A DNA stretch of 64,000 bases, taken from the NCBI GenBank assembly GCA_963205455.1, contig CAUJJL010000086.1, positions 1-64,000 on the forward strand, read 5' to 3'. Positions 14,776-21,566 of the stretch are shown here, piece by piece (within the stretch, counting starts at the first letter, position 1; every line of letters starts with the position of its first letter). This DNA comes from Verrucomicrobiota bacterium (GTDB lineage Bacteria; Verrucomicrobiota; Verrucomicrobiia; Opitutales; Opitutaceae). The position numbers and the translations under genes were made by a program. The notes under the pieces are model-generated. The model did no database searches. It was not told the origin of the DNA and saw nothing but the letters and a program-made list of their open reading frames with translations.

Positions 14776-15765
14776 TCATTTCAGCTCAGAAACGGGACTG
14801 GAGTTGCTGCTCATTGCCGAGGGCAACGCAGGCGTTCTGCGTCGCCGCCAGCGGGCGACCAGTCCTTCGTTCGGACTGACGATCCAGATCAATGCAAACA
14901 ACAGCGCTCCTGCGACGACCATCGCGGCTGCGATTGAGCAATCCAGCCATACTCCAAGCGTCACACCAAGCCATGAGCTGATGGCTGCGTGGACAAGCGA
15001 AAGCAGGTGAACTCTCGAAAGGCGGGTGGAAAGCAGCGATGCCGTTGCGCCGGGAAGGATCAGCATGGCCACCACAAGAATTGCGCCAACCGATTCAAAT
15101 GCGCTGACAACAACAACGGAGAGCGCCGCCATCAAACCATAGTGCATCAGGGTCGGATTGGTGCCCAGGGATCGTGCCAGTCCGGGGTCAAATGCGCTGA
15201 CGAGCAGCTCCTTGTAGAATGCGGCGATCAGGAGCCCGACCATGAGCAGCACCGCGGCCATTCTGACAAACGGAACGGGGCCCAGAACGAGGCCACCCAG
15301 GTTGATCATCGGCTCAAGCGGAACAAAGGCGATTTCGCCATAGAGGACACAGTCGGCGTCGAGATCCACCTGGCCCGCGTAGAGGCTGGTCATGACCACG
15401 CCGATCGCGAACAACGTTGAGAACGTAATGCCGATGGCGGCATCCTGCTTCACACGGGTCAGCTTGTGAATGCTCTCGATGGCTATCGTCGTGAAACCTC
15501 CCGCTGCGAGGGCGCCGGCGAACATGGGAAGAGTTCCACGGCTGCTTGTAACAAGAAACGCCGCAACGAGGCCGGGCAGGACGCTATGGCTGACCGCATC
15601 GCCCATCAGCGCCATGCGCCGCAGCATCAGGTAATTTCCCACAAGACCGCAGGCACCGGTCACCGCGAAGCCCATTGCAGCAATCCATCCAAAAAGGGAA
15701 AGGTTCTCCGTCCATGGCGCGACCAGCACCGCATGGGCATCGAAGGCAGGGATCATGGCATTCAT
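14776..15765 (-). CDS. Metal ABC transporter permease (ABC-3 family)
   Basis: A 329-residue integral membrane protein with about eight to nine hydrophobic helices. It carries the ABC-3 blocks RRMALMGDAVSHSVLPG near the start and AFYKELLVSAFDPGLARSLG in the middle, which face the ATPase. The family imports manganese, zinc or iron. It is the last gene of the five-gene minus-strand operon, and its ATG overlaps the stop of the fused permease gene by four bases. Two different permease polypeptides in one operon suggest a heterodimeric channel. Confidence 0.9.
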   Translation of the reverse strand: MNAMIPAFDAHAVLVAPWTENLSLFGWIAAMGFAVTGACGLVGNYLMLRRMALMGDAVSHSVLPGLVAAFLVTSSRGTLPMFAGALAAGGFTTIAIESIHKLTRVKQDAAIGITFSTLFAIGVVMTSLYAGQVDLDADCVLYGEIAFVPLEPMINLGGLVLGPVPFVRMAAVLLMVGLLIAAFYKELLVSAFDPGLARSLGTNPTLMHYGLMAALSVVVVSAFESVGAILVVAMLILPGATASLLSTRLSRVHLLSLVHAAISSWLGVTLGVWLDCSIAAAMVVAGALLFALIWIVSPNEGLVARWRRRRTPALPSAMSSNSSPVSELK

Positions 15766-17207
15766 TTTCCGGTTCCGTTGCCGCCCTCGCGTCGCGCGTC
15801 GCCTCCGTGAATCGCCCGCGCGCTCGGAATCGCCCGGCCGTGGGGATCGAAGGTTGCATAACCCAGGCGCCGCTCAAGATCGCGCACGACCGACTCGCCA
15901 AGGATGTGTTCGATCTTCTCCGCATCCTCGTGCACATGGTCAGCGGCGATGTTTGCCGATTGCGTCAGGTAGAGCTCCCAGAGGCGGTGATTGCGCACAA
16001 TCTCCCCTGCCCTCTTGCGTCCCGGAGGTGTGAAATAGAGAGCATCCCCTGAGAGCGTCGCCAGTCCGTGGCGAACGAGATCCCGTCCCAGACGCTGGGC
16101 ATCATCGATCGTTTCACGCCGCCGGATTGCCAGGTCATGGAGCGTGACCCCCTCCGTGCGGAATTGGGTCGCCTCCATGACGTGAAACATCGACTTGAGC
16201 GTGTTCTCACGTTGGGTTCGAGCTGCGCCTCTTCGGCGCAACATCCATCGGGCGACCACACCATGCCTCGGGCCGAAAAGAAAGGCGGCTGAGAACAAAG
16301 CACTCGCGCCAATCACCATGAGCGGTCCGGTCGGAAGACTGGGACCTACAAAGGACAGGAAGGCACCCGCCATGCCTGCACCCACGCCGAAGGCCGCTGC
16401 CATCACGACCAAGCGGTGAAGCCTGTCCGTGAGCAGGTAGGCCGCAGATGCGGGAGTGATCAGCATGGCCGACACCAGCACCACACCGACGGCCTGAAGC
16501 GCGATGACAACCGATGCAGTCAGCAGCAGCATGAGTCCGTGGTGTATCCAGCGCGTCGGCAAACCGATTGATCGCGAAAATCCGGGATCGAAACTCGATG
16601 CAAGCAGCTCCTTGTAGAAGGCGACGACCATGACGACGGCTATCGTGGTGACGAGGGCCATCAGTGTGATGTCCTCTGCACTGAGCGCGGCAGCCTGGCC
16701 GAAGAGAAACTTGTCCAGCCCGCTCTTGTTGCCTGTCGGCAGGCGCTGAATCATGGTGACAAGACAGATTCCAATCGCGAAGAACGTCGCGAGCACGAGG
16801 CCGAGCGCGGCGTCCTCCTTGAGGCGGGTTGTGCGGGAAATCGCCGAGACAAGAAATGTGCCCAGCAGTCCCGCAATCGTCGCCCCGATGAGGATCGCGA
16901 GGGGGTCCTTCGTCATGTTCCAGAGAAACCCTATCGCTACGCCGGGCAGAACAGCGTGAGAAAGCGCATCCCCCATCAGCGCCATCTTGCGCACCACGAT
17001 GAAGCTTCCCAAAAGACCGCAGCTCAGTCCGAGCAACACCGATCCGATGAGCGCGAAACGAACCGACGCGTCCTGCAGCGTGAGAAAGCGCACGATCTGG
17101 GTGCTCCAATCTGAGCTGACAAACTCACGCACACCGGCTGCTTCAACCGGAGATGTCGCCGCGGCCACTAGCAGAATCAGAAGAGCTCTCGATGCTGTTC
17201 GACTCAT
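15762..17207 (-). CDS. Metal ABC permease fused to a C-terminal DtxR/MntR-like metal-sensor domain
   Basis: A 481-residue fusion. It begins with a signal-peptide-like segment (residues 1-25), followed by an ABC-3 permease body to about 335 (VRKMALMGDALSHAVLPG, then FYKELLASSFDPGFSRSIG). The last 140 residues read as a DtxR-family regulator: a helix-turn-helix-like stretch (VTLHDLAIRRRETIDDAQRL), then NHRLWELYL and HEDAEKIEHIL, which carry the metal-binding and dimerisation His/Glu residues, and DPHGRAIPS. The sensor should lie on the cytoplasmic side. It could gate transport according to metal load, or bind DNA while membrane-anchored. Such fusions occur in Bacteroidetes and Planctomycetes relatives as far as I know. 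An alternative GTG start at 17240 lies just beyond the ATPase stop. Confidence 0.88.
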   Translation of the reverse strand: MSRTASRALLILLVAAATSPVEAAGVREFVSSDWSTQIVRFLTLQDASVRFALIGSVLLGLSCGLLGSFIVVRKMALMGDALSHAVLPGVAIGFLWNMTKDPLAILIGATIAGLLGTFLVSAISRTTRLKEDAALGLVLATFFAIGICLVTMIQRLPTGNKSGLDKFLFGQAAALSAEDITLMALVTTIAVVMVVAFYKELLASSFDPGFSRSIGLPTRWIHHGLMLLLTASVVIALQAVGVVLVSAMLITPASAAYLLTDRLHRLVVMAAAFGVGAGMAGAFLSFVGPSLPTGPLMVIGASALFSAAFLFGPRHGVVARWMLRRRGAARTQRENTLKSMFHVMEATQFRTEGVTLHDLAIRRRETIDDAQRLGRDLVRHGLATLSGDALYFTPPGRKRAGEIVRNHRLWELYLTQSANIAADHVHEDAEKIEHILGESVVRDLERRLGYATFDPHGRAIPSARAIHGGDARREGGNGTGK

Positions 17208-17240
17208 GGTTGGCGGTTTGTCAGAAACGGGATGGGACAC

Positions 17241-18020
17241 CTATCGCGACGCTCCATGCGCGCCGAGCGCCTGCGCGACTTCACTGAGAATGGTCAGGCG
17301 CCCACCATAGGTCTTCTGCAGAAGTTCCGCGGTGAAGACCTCCGCTGTTTTTCCGAAGGCGACCACGTTCATGTTGAGAAGGAGCAGATCGTCAAAATAC
17401 TGGCGGGCCGTTGGAAGGTCGTGGTGGACGACGAGCAGTGTCTTCCCCATGTCGCGAAGTTCGCGCAGCACGGCAATGATGGCCGCTTCGGTAGCCGCAT
17501 CCACACCCGCGAACGGCTCGTCCATGAAATAGATGTCCGCCTCCTGGGCAAGCGCGCGCGCAAGGAAGACTCGCTGCTGCTGCCCGCCCGACAGATTCGC
17601 AATCTGGCGGTTCGCATAAGGCAGGAGGTGGACTTTTTCCAGACAGGCGCGGGCAATAATCCGGTCAGCTTTGCTTGGGCGACGCAGGAGTCCGAGGCGT
17701 CCGTATCTTCCCATCAAGACCACATCCATCACGTTGACTGGAAAGTCCCAATCCACCGATTCACGTTGAGGCACGTACCCCACGCGTCGCGCCATCTTGT
17801 GAAATGATTCGCCGAAGAATTTAACCCAACCGCTTTGCAGTGGCAGCAGTCCCATGCAAGCCTTGATAAGTGTCGACTTGCCTGCCCCATTGGGTCCCAC
17901 GATCCCGATGAGGCGTCCGGGCTCAATGACGAGGTCGACTCCCCACAGGACGGGCTTCTTGTGGTAGGCGACAGTCAGGTCGTGTATCTCCAGAGGTGCG
18001 TAGGGCTCGCTCATGATCAA
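17241..18020 (-). CDS. Metal ABC transporter ATP-binding protein (MntB/ZnuC type)
   Basis: A 259-residue ABC ATPase. Walker A is GPNGAGKST, the Q-loop is YVPQRESVDWDFP, the signature is LSGGQQQR and Walker B is IYFMDEPFAGVD, followed by the H-loop in VVHHDLP. The VDWDFPV stretch after the Q-loop is characteristic of manganese/zinc/iron chelate transporters. It energises the two permeases encoded directly downstream. It lies between the barrel gene (stop and start almost touch) and the permease-DtxR fusion. Confidence 0.92.
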   Translation of the reverse strand: MIMSEPYAPLEIHDLTVAYHKKPVLWGVDLVIEPGRLIGIVGPNGAGKSTLIKACMGLLPLQSGWVKFFGESFHKMARRVGYVPQRESVDWDFPVNVMDVVLMGRYGRLGLLRRPSKADRIIARACLEKVHLLPYANRQIANLSGGQQQRVFLARALAQEADIYFMDEPFAGVDAATEAAIIAVLRELRDMGKTLLVVHHDLPTARQYFDDLLLLNMNVVAFGKTAEVFTAELLQKTYGGRLTILSEVAQALGAHGASR

Positions 18021-18842
18021 TCAGAAACGTTGTGAGAAACCCAGGGTCACCACCAGATCGGGCGCCGTTCGGGTCAATCCGATGGCCACGCCCGCATCGA
18101 GCTGCAGGTTGTCGTTAACCATAAAAGTCAGTCCGGTATTGAAGCCCAAGGCTGGTTTGCCTGCACCCGTCTCAATCGTGAGTTCCACAAAGGCGCCAAG
18201 CGTGTCGGTGAGATCCCGACCAAGCGTGACCGTATTGATCCAAATCTTGTCGTAGCTGTCGCGTTCGTTGCGCGAGAGGTCCAGCTCCGTCATTGCCCCC
18301 AGGCTCATCTCTCGCCCCAGTTTCATCGCGAAGGGAAAGATAATGCCTCCTTCGACGAAATCGTTGCCGAGCCCATCTGACGCGGTGGGCAGCTTGACGA
18401 AGGGCATCACGCCGAAGGCCGTTTTTCCGCCATCGTTTCCCCAGAAATTACATTTGGCCCGCAGCGTGATATCGCCCAGCCCCCGCTGTCGAATGCGAAT
18501 GCCCAGCGGCCGATCCTCAACCTTTACGTCGAGGTGTCCGTCAACCACCACCTGCAGTTCCCACCGCGGTGTCAGCCCCAGGCGCAGGTTAAAAGGCAGG
18601 AAATTCCAGATTTCCACGCGTATGCCGTCCCATTCGGAAGTGTATCTCTCCCGCAGCCAGCTTGCCGCACTTGCTTCCAGTTGCATGCGTCCGGGCTCGA
18701 GTGTGAAGGGACTCTCTGTCGCATCGGGGCGATCCGTGCTGAATTCACGCGCAGCCTCGATTTCGCATGGGCACACCATCACGGCAAAGAGGACAACGGG
18801 ATGGAAAAGATGACGCGGATTCTGAAAAAAGAATCGGTTCAT
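18021..18842 (-). CDS. Outer-membrane beta-barrel protein (transporter/MetA-like family) within the metal operon
   Basis: A 273-residue protein with a signal peptide (about 1-30, FHPVVLFAVMVCPCEIEA). Amphipathic strands begin with STDRPDATESPFTLEPG, a start I associate with the phenol-degradation MetA-like outer-membrane family, and the last residue is Phe (TLGFSQRF). It is probably a channel or structural barrel in the outer membrane. Its ATG overlaps the stop of the binding-protein gene (ATGA at 18839-18842) and it ends one base from the ATPase start. It is therefore an integral part of the operon and may admit the metal or its chelate across the outer membrane. Confidence 0.75.
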   Translation of the reverse strand: MNRFFFQNPRHLFHPVVLFAVMVCPCEIEAAREFSTDRPDATESPFTLEPGRMQLEASAASWLRERYTSEWDGIRVEIWNFLPFNLRLGLTPRWELQVVVDGHLDVKVEDRPLGIRIRQRGLGDITLRAKCNFWGNDGGKTAFGVMPFVKLPTASDGLGNDFVEGGIIFPFAMKLGREMSLGAMTELDLSRNERDSYDKIWINTVTLGRDLTDTLGAFVELTIETGAGKPALGFNTGLTFMVNDNLQLDAGVAIGLTRTAPDLVVTLGFSQRF

Positions 18843-19762
18843 TTGAGAGAGTCGACGATCGTTGTCAGGTTATGCTTGATCATGCCTTCGTAGGTTCCGA
18901 GGTCATAGCCGTTTTCGATGGCACCCGGTGTTCCCATCGCATCGGAGAACAACTCCCCGCCGATCCTCACGCCGGCATCCCGTGAGACCCGCTCAATGGT
19001 GGCGTGAGGCACGCTGGATTCGACGAAGATCGCCTTGACGCGGTGGGATCGGATGAAATCGACGAGTTTGGCCATGTCCGACAAGGCGGCTTCGCTGACG
19101 GTGGATATTCCCTGGAGGCCGATCACCTTGAAACCATAGGCGCGACCAAAGTAATTGTAGGCATCGTGGCTGGTGACGAGGATGCGACGATCCACGGTCA
19201 ATTCAGTGGCCTTGGCCAGAGACCAGCGGTGCAGCGCCTCAAGGGAGCGTCGCAGCGCGATTCCGCGGGCCTCGAATTGCGTTTTGTGCGCGGGGTCATT
19301 TGCCGCCAGCGTTTCCACGACCGGCTGGATGCATTGGATCCAAAGGGAAACATCGAACCAAATGTGAGGATCGGGATGCCCCTCGAATTTTGGCGGATGC
19401 AGCAAACTCTCCCTCGGGATTTCGCGCGAGACTGCGACCACGGGCTTGTGTTTCTCGAGCCGTTCAAACAGCTCGGCCATCTTTCCCTCGAGCATCAGGC
19501 CATTGTAGAAAATGACGTCGGCCTTCTGCAGTTCGATGACGTCAGAAGCGCGCGCCTTGTAAAGGTGGGGATCGACCCCAGGCCCCATCAGTCCGGTGAC
19601 CGATGTCGCCTCCCCGCCAATCTGCCTGACCAGATCCGTGATCATCGTCGTGGTGGTGACCACACGCAGCGGGGACGCCAGAGCAGCCGCGGAGAGGAGG
19701 AGCGAGAGTGCGGCGCTCGTAAGGGCAGCGTAACGTGGCTTCAGGATCATGAATGCATGCAA
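18839..19762 (-). CDS. Metal-binding periplasmic protein (TroA/ZnuA family)
   Basis: A 307-residue cluster A-I solute-binding protein with a signal peptide (about 1-29). Likely metal ligands are His66 in VDPHLYKA, His133 in PDPHIWFD, His199 in TSHDAYNYF and Asp274 in LFSDAMG. The His-His-His-Asp set is the TroA pattern (zinc or manganese); the PsaA-type manganese proteins have Glu at the third place. It delivers metal to the permeases in the periplasm. It is the first gene of the operon, with two palindromes just upstream. An in-frame ATG at 19750 is an alternative start. Confidence 0.93.
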   Translation of the reverse strand: MHAFMILKPRYAALTSAALSLLLSAAALASPLRVVTTTTMITDLVRQIGGEATSVTGLMGPGVDPHLYKARASDVIELQKADVIFYNGLMLEGKMAELFERLEKHKPVVAVSREIPRESLLHPPKFEGHPDPHIWFDVSLWIQCIQPVVETLAANDPAHKTQFEARGIALRRSLEALHRWSLAKATELTVDRRILVTSHDAYNYFGRAYGFKVIGLQGISTVSEAALSDMAKLVDFIRSHRVKAIFVESSVPHATIERVSRDAGVRIGGELFSDAMGTPGAIENGYDLGTYEGMIKHNLTTIVDSLK

Positions 19763-19767
19763 ACCCG

Positions 19768-19780
19768 GGTAATGATTACC
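19768..19780. promoter_or_regulatory. Perfect palindrome GGTAATGATTACC, candidate metalloregulator operator
   Basis: This is a 6-1-6 perfect inverted repeat lying five bases upstream of the binding-protein ATG at 19762 (or 17 from the ATG at 19750). The shape resembles the 7-1-7 boxes of Fur-family regulators such as Zur (TAAT-N-ATTA core). No Fur/Zur gene lies in the window, so the assignment is inferred from shape and position. Confidence 0.5.
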
Positions 19781-19794
19781 GCAAGCAAAAAATG

Positions 19795-19808
19795 TTAGCC
19801 AAGGCTAA
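19795..19808. promoter_or_regulatory. Inverted repeat TTAGCC-AA-GGCTAA, candidate DtxR/MntR-type operator
   Basis: A perfect 6-2-6 inverted repeat 33 bases upstream of the binding-protein ATG and 63 bases upstream of the divergent fused permease gene. TTAGC-type half sites are reminiscent of DtxR-family boxes. The operon itself encodes a DtxR-like domain fused to a permease, making this a plausible target. No experimental evidence can be read from sequence. Confidence 0.5.
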
Positions 19809-19871: not shown

Positions 19872-21566
19872 ATGTCGAAATCGGCCGCGCGTATTGTTTT
19901 TCTTGTTACAGCGCTCTTTTTTGCGGCATTCTTTGTCTGGCCAATCCTGCAGATCCTGAAGGGCGGCTTTATCGATGCGGATGGCAAATTGACGTTTGCT
20001 TACTTTGTCGCCCTCCTCGCCGACCCCCTCTATCGTGAGGGCCTCGTAAATTCGTTTCTGCTGGCCTGCCTGACCACCAGCCTTGCGCTCTTGATTGCAG
20101 TTCCGCTGGCGTTCATCAGCGACCGCTTCGTATTCCCGGGAAAATCTGCGCTCAGCTCCCTGGTCCTGATCCCGATGATCCTGCCACCCTTCGTTGGTGC
20201 GATCGGCATCAAGCAGATCTTCGGTCAATACGGTGCATTCAACTCCCTGCTGATTGCGCTCGGTCTTCGACCGGAAGGATGGACCTATGACTGGTTTGCA
20301 TTGCATCAGTTCGGAGGCATAGCGGTGGTCAATGCGCTCACCCTCTACCCCATCCTCTACCTGAACTGCGTGGCTGCATTGGCGAACATCGATCCGGCAA
20401 TGGAGGAGGCCGCCGAGAACCTTGGTTGCACCGGATTCCGACGGTTCCGGCTGATCACGCTGCCTCTGATCAAGTCCGGATTGTTTGCAGGCGGAACGAT
20501 CGTCTTCATCTGGGCATTCACCGAACTCGGAACTCCCCTGGTGTTTGACTATGCGCGCCTCACGAGCGTGCAGATCTTCTATGGGCTGAAGGACATTGGA
20601 GGAAATCCGTTTCCCTATGCTCTCGTGGCAGCAATGCTTGTATCTACGACACTGCTGTACGCCTTGGGTAAGGGAATCTTTGGTCGACAGAACCATGCCA
20701 TGATGGCCAAGGCGACCGCCAGCAGCGGCCCGCGTCGGCCGGGCGCCCTCGGGGCCTGGTTGTGTACCGCCGCCTTTGCCGGCATCACCTTTCTGGCCGT
20801 TCTTCCCCACCTCGGCGTGGTGCTGGTCGCGTTTTCCGACGACTGGTATGCGGGTGTCCTTCCGCGACAATTTACGCTGGAGAATTTCAGGATTGCGCTC
20901 GGACACGATCTCACAGTCCCGGCGATCGCAAACAGCCTCAAATTCGCGAGCATCTCGACGGTCCTCGACGTCATTTTGGGCATCGCTATAGCCTACGTCG
21001 TCGTTCGATCGAAAGTTGCCGGCCGACAGGTGCTCGATTTCCTTTCGATGCTTCCGCTAGCGGTCCCGGGCCTGGTTCTTGCCTTCGGATACCTCGCAAT
21101 GTCCCAGGATGGAAGGCTGTTCTCCTTCCTCAATCCGACCCGTGATCCGACCATCTTGTTGATCATCGCCTACTCCGTGAGACGACTTCCCTACGTCGTG
21201 CGATCGGCGGCCGCAGGCTTCCAGCAGACGAGCGAAACCCTGGAAGAGGCGGCGCAGAATATGGGCGCGTCACCGTTGCGTGCGCTGCGCAAGATCACCC
21301 TGCCGCTCATCATGGCGAACCTGATCGCGGGCGGCCTTCTGGCATTCGCGTTTGCGATGCTCGAGGTGAGCGATTCGCTCATCCTTGCCCAGAAGCAGGC
21401 GTTCTATCCGATTACGAAGGCGATCCTTGAACTGCTGCAACTCCTCGGTGACGGAAAGTTCATTGCAAGCGCGCTCGGCGTCTGGGCGATGGCCTTCCTT
21501 GGAATCACGATCGTGGGAATGACCATCCTGCTTGGAAAGAAACTGGGCGCCATCTTCCGCATTTGA
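19872..21566 (+). CDS. Fused two-domain ABC permease (iron(III)/AfuB-FbpB-like)
   Basis: A 564-residue protein containing two consecutive BPD-type permease units of about six helices each. Each carries an EAA loop: EEAAENLGCTGFRRFRLITLPL in the first half and EEAAQNMGASPLRALRKITLPL in the second. Fused double permeases of this form serve Fe3+ (FbpB/AfuB), 2-aminoethylphosphonate or sulfate-type importers. No ATPase or binding protein accompanies it here, so partners must be encoded elsewhere. It diverges from the metal operon across the 109-base gap with two palindromes, which may mean shared metal control. The substrate cannot be fixed from sequence alone. Confidence 0.85.
   Translation: MSKSAARIVFLVTALFFAAFFVWPILQILKGGFIDADGKLTFAYFVALLADPLYREGLVNSFLLACLTTSLALLIAVPLAFISDRFVFPGKSALSSLVLIPMILPPFVGAIGIKQIFGQYGAFNSLLIALGLRPEGWTYDWFALHQFGGIAVVNALTLYPILYLNCVAALANIDPAMEEAAENLGCTGFRRFRLITLPLIKSGLFAGGTIVFIWAFTELGTPLVFDYARLTSVQIFYGLKDIGGNPFPYALVAAMLVSTTLLYALGKGIFGRQNHAMMAKATASSGPRRPGALGAWLCTAAFAGITFLAVLPHLGVVLVAFSDDWYAGVLPRQFTLENFRIALGHDLTVPAIANSLKFASISTVLDVILGIAIAYVVVRSKVAGRQVLDFLSMLPLAVPGLVLAFGYLAMSQDGRLFSFLNPTRDPTILLIIAYSVRRLPYVVRSAAAGFQQTSETLEEAAQNMGASPLRALRKITLPLIMANLIAGGLLAFAFAMLEVSDSLILAQKQAFYPITKAILELLQLLGDGKFIASALGVWAMAFLGITIVGMTILLGKKLGAIFRI

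Follow-up and report, generated by a model that had tools for sequence, protein, structure and literature searches.

The 64,000-nucleotide stretch analysed here (the window: positions 1 to 64,000 of contig CAUJJL010000086.1, assembly GCA_963205455.1, from a Verrucomicrobiota bacterium of Opitutaceae type) carries a Tro/Ytg-like metal-importer operon in which one of the two permeases ends in a domain resembling the DtxR family of metal-dependent repressors. The genes of the operon all lie on the minus strand, in the order substrate-binding protein, barrel protein, ATPase, permease-DtxR fusion and second permease. An earlier sequence-only reading had placed the fusion at 15762-17207. The open reading frame (ORF) is real, but 17207 is an in-frame ATG, which would give a product of 481 amino acids (aa), and the ORF begins at 17240 with GTG. 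The parts of the fusion, in window coordinates, are as follows.

15765..17240, with the stop codon reaching 15762, minus strand: coding sequence of the permease-DtxR fusion, 492 aa, GTG start.
16275..17063, minus strand: ATP-binding cassette (ABC)-3 permease domain, residues 60-322 (Pfam PF00950, E 9e-69).
16209..16274, minus strand: membrane-to-sensor linker, residues 323-344, in which the AlphaFold model begins a continuous helix, 328-357.
16032..16208, minus strand: winged-helix region by predicted fold, residues 345-403, lacking a PF01325 match and with RRRETIDD replacing the DtxR/MntR recognition helix.
15825..16031, minus strand: DtxR-like metal-binding and dimerisation domain, residues 404-472 (Pfam PF02742, Fe_dep_repr_C).

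The sequence-only reading had seen here a metal permease fused to a DtxR/MntR-like sensor, which both profile matches and Foldseek bear out. The profile search of the C-terminal region that it had proposed returns PF02742 at E 3.4e-22 (78.7 bits, where the cut-off is 27), so DtxR similarity is present, and the segments NHRLWELYL, HEDAEKIEHIL and DPHGRAIPS that it had picked out are all found. Searched by sequence against the PDB, the first half of the protein finds a PsaB-type Mn permease (E 1.5e-40) and the second half DtxR-family repressors (E 1.7e-11 and weaker). Residues H418, E422, H437, E441, E444 and H445 are putative metal ligands of the fused domain. The combination of PF00950 and PF02742 in one ORF, as in YtgCR-type proteins, is also found in 28/28 relatives.

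The AlphaFold model of the whole protein (mean predicted local distance difference test score, pLDDT, 77; predicted template modelling score 0.71) has the PsaBC permease 7kyp as its top Foldseek match (E 2e-15). The permease dominates the matches of the full model, and residues 335-492 were therefore modelled separately (mean pLDDT 83). With Foldseek this second model finds the Mn repressor DR2539, IdeR and DtxR (E 1e-8), with target-normalised TM scores of 0.80-0.89 for most two-domain chains. In the full model the last membrane helix stops at residue 322 and a single helix, 328-357, doubles as the first helix of the winged-helix domain, with pLDDT of about 90 over residues 331-410. The spacing from P324 to E345 is 21 residues in 61/66 script-parsed fusions and, by eye, also in the five that were misparsed and in 13 that were unparsed; L053 is cut by a contig end in this comparison. 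A constant 21-residue linker fits the expectation for mechanical coupling. The model supports a sensor held at the membrane beside the transporter by a fixed helical extension, the location that the sequence-only reading had supposed.

Of the features that mark the DtxR/MntR family, the fused domain has the metal-binding and dimerisation domain with its C-terminal ligands, and neither matches the PF01325 winged helix-turn-helix (HTH) profile nor keeps its DNA-contact residues. PF01325 (Fe_dep_repress) finds no match in the window fusion at E 1e-3 in Pfam, and when 28 fusions were scanned directly (E 0.01), 28/28 matched PF02742 and 0/28 PF01325. Among 57 related genomes, 21 have a fusion (that of G004 is split across two contigs), and none of their 22 fusion ORFs matches PF01325, a profile generally matched by standalone DtxR/MntR proteins of 140-300 aa. 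What the earlier reading had called HTH-like thus stands as a winged-helix fold in the model and falls as a PF01325 match or a recognisable DtxR/MntR recognition helix.

The ligand columns, from H418 to H445 as listed above, are 93-100% conserved in 69 non-redundant fusions, where the recognition-helix columns, residues 378 to 386, are 23-58% conserved; L105, which has HRVWE in place of the HRLWE motif, and L120 were left out before the fusions were counted. In 23 standalone DtxRs the recognition-helix columns read V-x-PGTATT-M-x-K and are 70-96% conserved at most positions. Aspartate or glutamate occupies residue 379 in 50/69 fusions and residue 380 in 58/69, columns that align in our own alignment with Ser37 and Ser38 of MntR. 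The MntR-DNA structure is reported to place His35, Pro36, Ser37, Ser38, Thr40, Lys41 and Gln44 close to bases or phosphates (PMC11275975). The fusions share a motif of their own in this region, RRRET-(L/I)-(D/E)-(D/E). By column conservation they also have in common N417, W421, Y424 and T426, which are mostly missing from standalone proteins and, being fusion-specific, suggest a partner surface peculiar to the fusions.

Conservation across the two halves of the domain differs in the same direction. Mean identity among the fusions of 43 genomes (903 pairs; two of 45 genomes, L100 with a DtxR-type regulator and L105, being left out) is 0.51 in the HTH and 0.75 in the metal domain, and among the MntRs of the same genomes (903 pairs) it is 0.61 and 0.50; the HTH is conserved less well than the metal domain in 100% of fusion pairs and 14% of MntR pairs. 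The presence of N346/K349 where MntR has D8/E11 was considered as a fusion-specific loss and rejected, Asn and Lys being found at 70% and 87%, respectively, in 23 standalone verrucomicrobial DtxRs. Judged by these comparisons, the fused domain has most likely lost the role of a repressor that reads DNA.

A second class of DtxR-like proteins was also observed among standalone verrucomicrobial ORFs (L114, L116, L119, L126, L132, L137, L140, L141, L143 and L144; 311-404 aa). These proteins carry a long C-terminal extension that appears FeoA-like by eye, keep the metal-site motifs and DPHGDPIP, and lack both the recognition helix and a PF01325 match; they are possibly another case of the DtxR fold turned to a non-DNA use.

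Upstream of the operon lies the palindrome that the sequence-only reading had singled out as a site for binding assays:

19795..19808, no strand assigned: operator-like palindrome TTAGCCAAGGCTAA.

The palindrome is real, its exact copy in the 4.56-Mb genome is the only one, and sites of its type stand before the operons of relatives much more often than chance would give: TTAGCCnnGGCTAA is found at 10/12 or better in 30/64 regions upstream of genes for substrate-binding proteins, where dinucleotide shuffles expect 0.35 and where the 64 include loci without full upstream DNA, which cannot score well. A genome-wide regulon built on TTAGCCAAGGCTAA was rejected. Matches with two mismatches (5 forward, 5 reverse; the site itself counts on both strands) are outnumbered by those of a backwards-pattern control (14 forward, 19 reverse), which leaves the exact site as the only meaningful one. 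A second palindrome, GGTAATGATTACC, lies at 19769-19781, just upstream of the start of the substrate-binding protein and 13 bases from the first.

Separate regulators accompany the fusions almost everywhere. A standalone HTH-bearing DtxR/MntR is found in 19/21 fusion genomes of the 57-genome set, a standalone PF01325 regulator in 45/50 fusion genomes searched (50 of the 54 first listed), and a MntR-like gene inside the same fetched locus in 12/80. In the upstream regions of these 50 genomes the operator type follows the recognition helix of the separate MntR: TTAGn6CTAA is present in 24/30 genomes with a QASVT-type helix, GTTCnCCnnGnCAAAC in 5/5 with a QPSVT-type helix and TGTAGCn4GCTACA in 3/3 with an HVTV-type helix, and within these three groups no motif of another class was found. 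Mononucleotide shuffles over all 50 genomes expect 0.2, 0.02 and 0 matches, respectively, for the three motifs. The RRRET motif of the fused helix hardly differs between the three groups, and the QPSVT-type genomes, whose fused domains are 74-79% identical to that of the nearest QASVT-type genome, nonetheless have different operators. In two order-level relatives, G044 and G037, a divergent DtxR gene stands beside the operon with TTTGAnTAATCAAA in the intergenic region (by eye in G037). The fused domain was rejected as the main reader of the operator, since operator type changes with the separate MntR and the fused helix does not change. Instead, the canonical MntR encoded on contig C88 most likely controls transcription of the operon at the TTAGCC-n2-GGCTAA operator, and we predict that the 19795-19808 palindrome binds this standalone MntR and not the fused domain.

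In some relatives both permeases carry the domain. Among the matches listed for 193 genomes drawn evenly from the phylum, several genomes have two tandem long ORFs with PF02742. From such listed matches we chose candidate dual-fusion operons, fetched 20 stretches and read the permease tails in 13; a DtxR-like domain ends both permeases in 9/13 (L209-L216 and L220), so that these operons have a sensor on each permease; the window operon has one sensor. In seven of the nine stretches (L209-L214 and L216) there is also a DtxR-like gene that matches a standalone DtxR over its full length. The ligand columns read HEDDEH in the first permease and HEHEEH in the second in all nine operons, two sets that we call complementary, and the recognition-helix columns are scrambled in both domains. 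Two sensors of constant type on one heterodimeric transporter would fit pairing within the transporter better than they would two independent repressors.

Taken together, we consider it rather probable that a separate MntR represses this Tro/Mnt/Ytg-type Mn(Fe) importer operon, and that the fused domain, no longer reading DNA and tethered at the transporter's cytosolic mouth, senses cytosolic metal and restrains the importer. Sequence and comparison supply the basis for this reading in the architecture, the conserved ligands, the lost recognition features, the coexistence with MntR and the tracking of MntR by the operator; we infer the identity of the metal, its binding, the inhibition of transport and the non-cleavage of the domain. 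The sequence-only reading had offered two actions for the sensor, blocking the channel and acting on DNA. The first, which would act on the transporter itself, is favoured, and the second is disfavoured by the lost contact positions, the operator that tracks MntR and the near-universal presence of an intact standalone DtxR/MntR in fusion genomes.

In the mechanism we propose, MntR would set the amount of importer and the fused domain its activity. As cytosolic Mn2+/Fe2+ rises, the site in the fused domain would fill, and the metal-filled domain would rearrange or pair with another sensor domain. The fixed helix 328-357 would transmit this change so that the permease and ATPase are held in a resting state. 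Such feedback, or transinhibition, would act as a fast post-translational brake above the slower repression by MntR. Transinhibition by attached domains is described as established for MetNI and ModABC in a review in which the term DtxR does not occur (PMC10710835). The wider proposal is more tentative, and we hold it with slightly less than even confidence: in Verrucomicrobiota and relatives the DtxR repressor fold would have become a permease-borne sensor that directly gates Mn/Fe importers, and in one branch complementary sensors on both permeases could pair and lock the transporter at high cytosolic metal.

Several observations weigh against a sensor that has left DNA. In Chlamydia, YtgR is reported to be cleaved from the permease, to bind metal and to act as a repressor of ytg and trpBA (PMC5599777, PMC6504234, PMC7755916). 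The winged-helix fold is kept in our model, with its own conserved RRRET-L/I-D/E-D/E motif, and an untypical contact of this winged helix with DNA is possible. IdeR is reported to recognise DNA by indirect readout and to tolerate Q43A and P39G (PMC8464063); since it survives single contact mutations, residue loss alone is no proof of lost DNA binding. TTAGn6CTAA is also present in 3/5 genomes in which no MntR was detected, these being metagenome-assembled genomes (MAGs) of unknown completeness, and the fused domain might read it there. The match between operator and MntR is itself imperfect: 6/30 QASVT genomes reach only 7/8 on TTAGn6CTAA, L051 combines a perfect TTAGCC operator with a differing MntR helix of the "other" type, and the four RSTVS-type genomes have none of the three motifs. 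None of the three is found either in L061, the second genome with an "other" helix, or in the upstream stretch of the single PGTAT genome, L100, which has masked bases and may not be a promoter. The TTAGCC motif score does speak for MntR as the reader, since it rises with identity to the MntR of the window genome (rho 0.63, p 3e-6, n=45) but shows no such correlation with identity of the fused domain (rho -0.05); the comparison, however, relates to the window proteins only and covers a narrow range of fused-domain identity. The operator/MntR comparisons also ignore shared ancestry.

In a YtgR-like alternative, proteolysis would free the C-terminal domain, which would then repress its own operon in a metal-dependent manner. 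The fusion shares its architecture and operon type with Chlamydia YtgCR, for which cleavage and repression are reported, a DtxR-like palindrome lies upstream of the operon, the predicted winged-helix fold is retained, and the three genomes just mentioned keep TTAGn6CTAA where MntR was not detected. We nevertheless consider release unlikely, given that PF01325 is unmatched in the fusions, that acids stand at DNA-contact positions, that the operator type goes with the separate MntR while the fused helix is unchanged, that a separate HTH-bearing DtxR/MntR is present in 45/50 and 19/21 fusion genomes, and that the linker is constant in length and modelled as one continuous helix. Regulation could instead pass through the separate repressor, the fused domain pairing with MntR or holding it at the membrane according to transport state and thereby altering transcription. 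MalK-MalT and AmtB-GlnK are models for transport activity that feeds into regulation in this way. The fused domain does keep the dimerisation domain of the family to which the coexisting MntR/DtxR belongs, and fusion and MntR-like gene share one locus in 12/80, but PF02742 scores 44-61 bits for the MntR type against about 78-88 for the fusions of this clade, and the fusions coexist with DtxR-type as well as MntR-type partners; sequestration of this kind seems very unlikely to us. We are just as doubtful that the domain is a mere acceptor, a chaperone or buffer that takes metal leaving the permease and has no regulatory role. The strong conservation of the putative ligands and the placement of the domain beside the channel would suit an acceptor, yet a whole DtxR fold with a dimerisation region, a fixed linker and invariant N417, W421, Y424 and T426 exceeds the needs of a chelator, and some lineages have a sensor on both permeases.

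The remaining genes of the operon are as follows.

18839..19762, minus strand: substrate-binding protein, TroA-like (PF01297, E 2e-75).
18021..18842, minus strand: outer-membrane-barrel-like protein (PF13557, E 1.6e-18).
17241..18020, minus strand: ABC ATPase; NCBIfam ranks Mn and Mn/Fe transporters highest, at scores below their cut-offs.
14776..15765, minus strand: second permease, 329 aa, without the sensor domain (PF00950, E 7e-48).

With its TroA-like binding protein, ABC-3 permeases and metal-type ATPase, the system has the components of a Tro/Mnt/Yfe-type importer, and its binding protein-ATPase-permease-permease setting is that of a YtgCR-type operon. The top PDB match of the binding protein is Treponema pallidum TroA (E 1e-71). 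Because the binding protein is nearest TroA and the ATPase nearest the Mn and Mn/Fe subfamilies, Mn/Fe is the likely cargo of the importer. The PF13557 protein is a possible candidate for an outer-membrane metal channel, and a barrel match lies between the binding protein and the fusion in 22/61 loci that have both binding protein and ATPase in view. Elsewhere in the genome, contig C132 has, next to a His-rich protein, a separate ABC system (binding protein, ATPase, ABC-3-like permease) which by eye would be a zinc importer. The operator region is shared with a divergent gene at 19872-21566 of the window, for a two-domain BPD_transp_1 permease of the Fe3+/molybdate/2-aminoethylphosphonate type, and such a permease is also divergent in L033, L034, L039, L040, L046 and L047 (6/80) and in L150.

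At least 506 relatives came out of a scan of genome contigs that used the C-terminal alignment. The best 80 of these at least 506 are fusion ORFs throughout, wherever enough of the contig is present to tell; several of the 80 loci are interrupted by a contig end. With the exception of one Klebsiella-labelled record they come from Verrucomicrobiota, mostly Opitutaceae, Verrucomicrobiales, Pedosphaera and Chthoniobacterales, with one Kiritimatiellia record, and no Chlamydia record is among these best 80. The exception, L071, titled Klebsiella pneumoniae, bears a verrucomicrobial operon and is probably a mislabelled MAG.

The architecture itself is not new, because Chlamydia trachomatis YtgCR (CT069, ytgABCD) is the same fusion of an ABC-3-type permease with a C-terminal DtxR-like domain (PMC5599777 and PMC7755916). 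Orthologous fusions are ascribed to 11 phyla by Thompson et al. 2012, as cited in a review, which also states that the Chlamydia genome has no obvious Fur/DtxR/Irr homologue by sequence (PMC5599777). In the open-licence literature, as far as its texts were accessible, YtgCR is the only characterised permease-DtxR fusion that we found, and is explained as a cleaved repressor; no report of non-repressor or dual permease-DtxR fusions was found there. Two puzzles attend the YtgCR model, an unknown protease and a repressor made inside the membrane. Our comparisons suggest that this architecture, across a large clade of other bacteria, serves as a transporter-borne metal sensor and not as a repressor. 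If so, a transcription-factor fold would have been recycled as a transporter brake, permease-repressor fusions would have a simple reason, and whether such importers feel cytosolic metal directly becomes a question testable in a reconstitutable system.

Like YtgCR, the window fusion joins a permease to a DtxR-like domain in a metal operon with a binding protein, an ATPase and two permeases. It differs from YtgCR, which we compared by its published description, in three respects: it has lost the residues that contact DNA, its genome encodes a separate MntR, and the operator type goes with that regulator. The system resembles Treponema pallidum TroABCD-TroR in its binding protein, nearest TroA in the PDB, its two permeases and its DtxR-family protein; TroR, however, is a separate repressor (PMC5599777), whereas the DtxR-like domain here is fused to one permease and in some relatives to both. 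With MntR, DtxR and IdeR the fused domain shares the fold and the C-terminal metal-site residues, but it lacks a PF01325 match, the recognition helix and the SH3 domain, and is membrane-tethered. By architecture and model it is a cytosolic regulatory domain attached to a transporter, as in transinhibited importers, and here the closest likeness is to the C2 domain of MetNI and the C-terminal domain of ModABC, from which the mechanism would follow by analogy. In those importers, however, the regulatory domains have other folds and sit on the ATPase, whereas in the window importer a DtxR fold sits on the permease.

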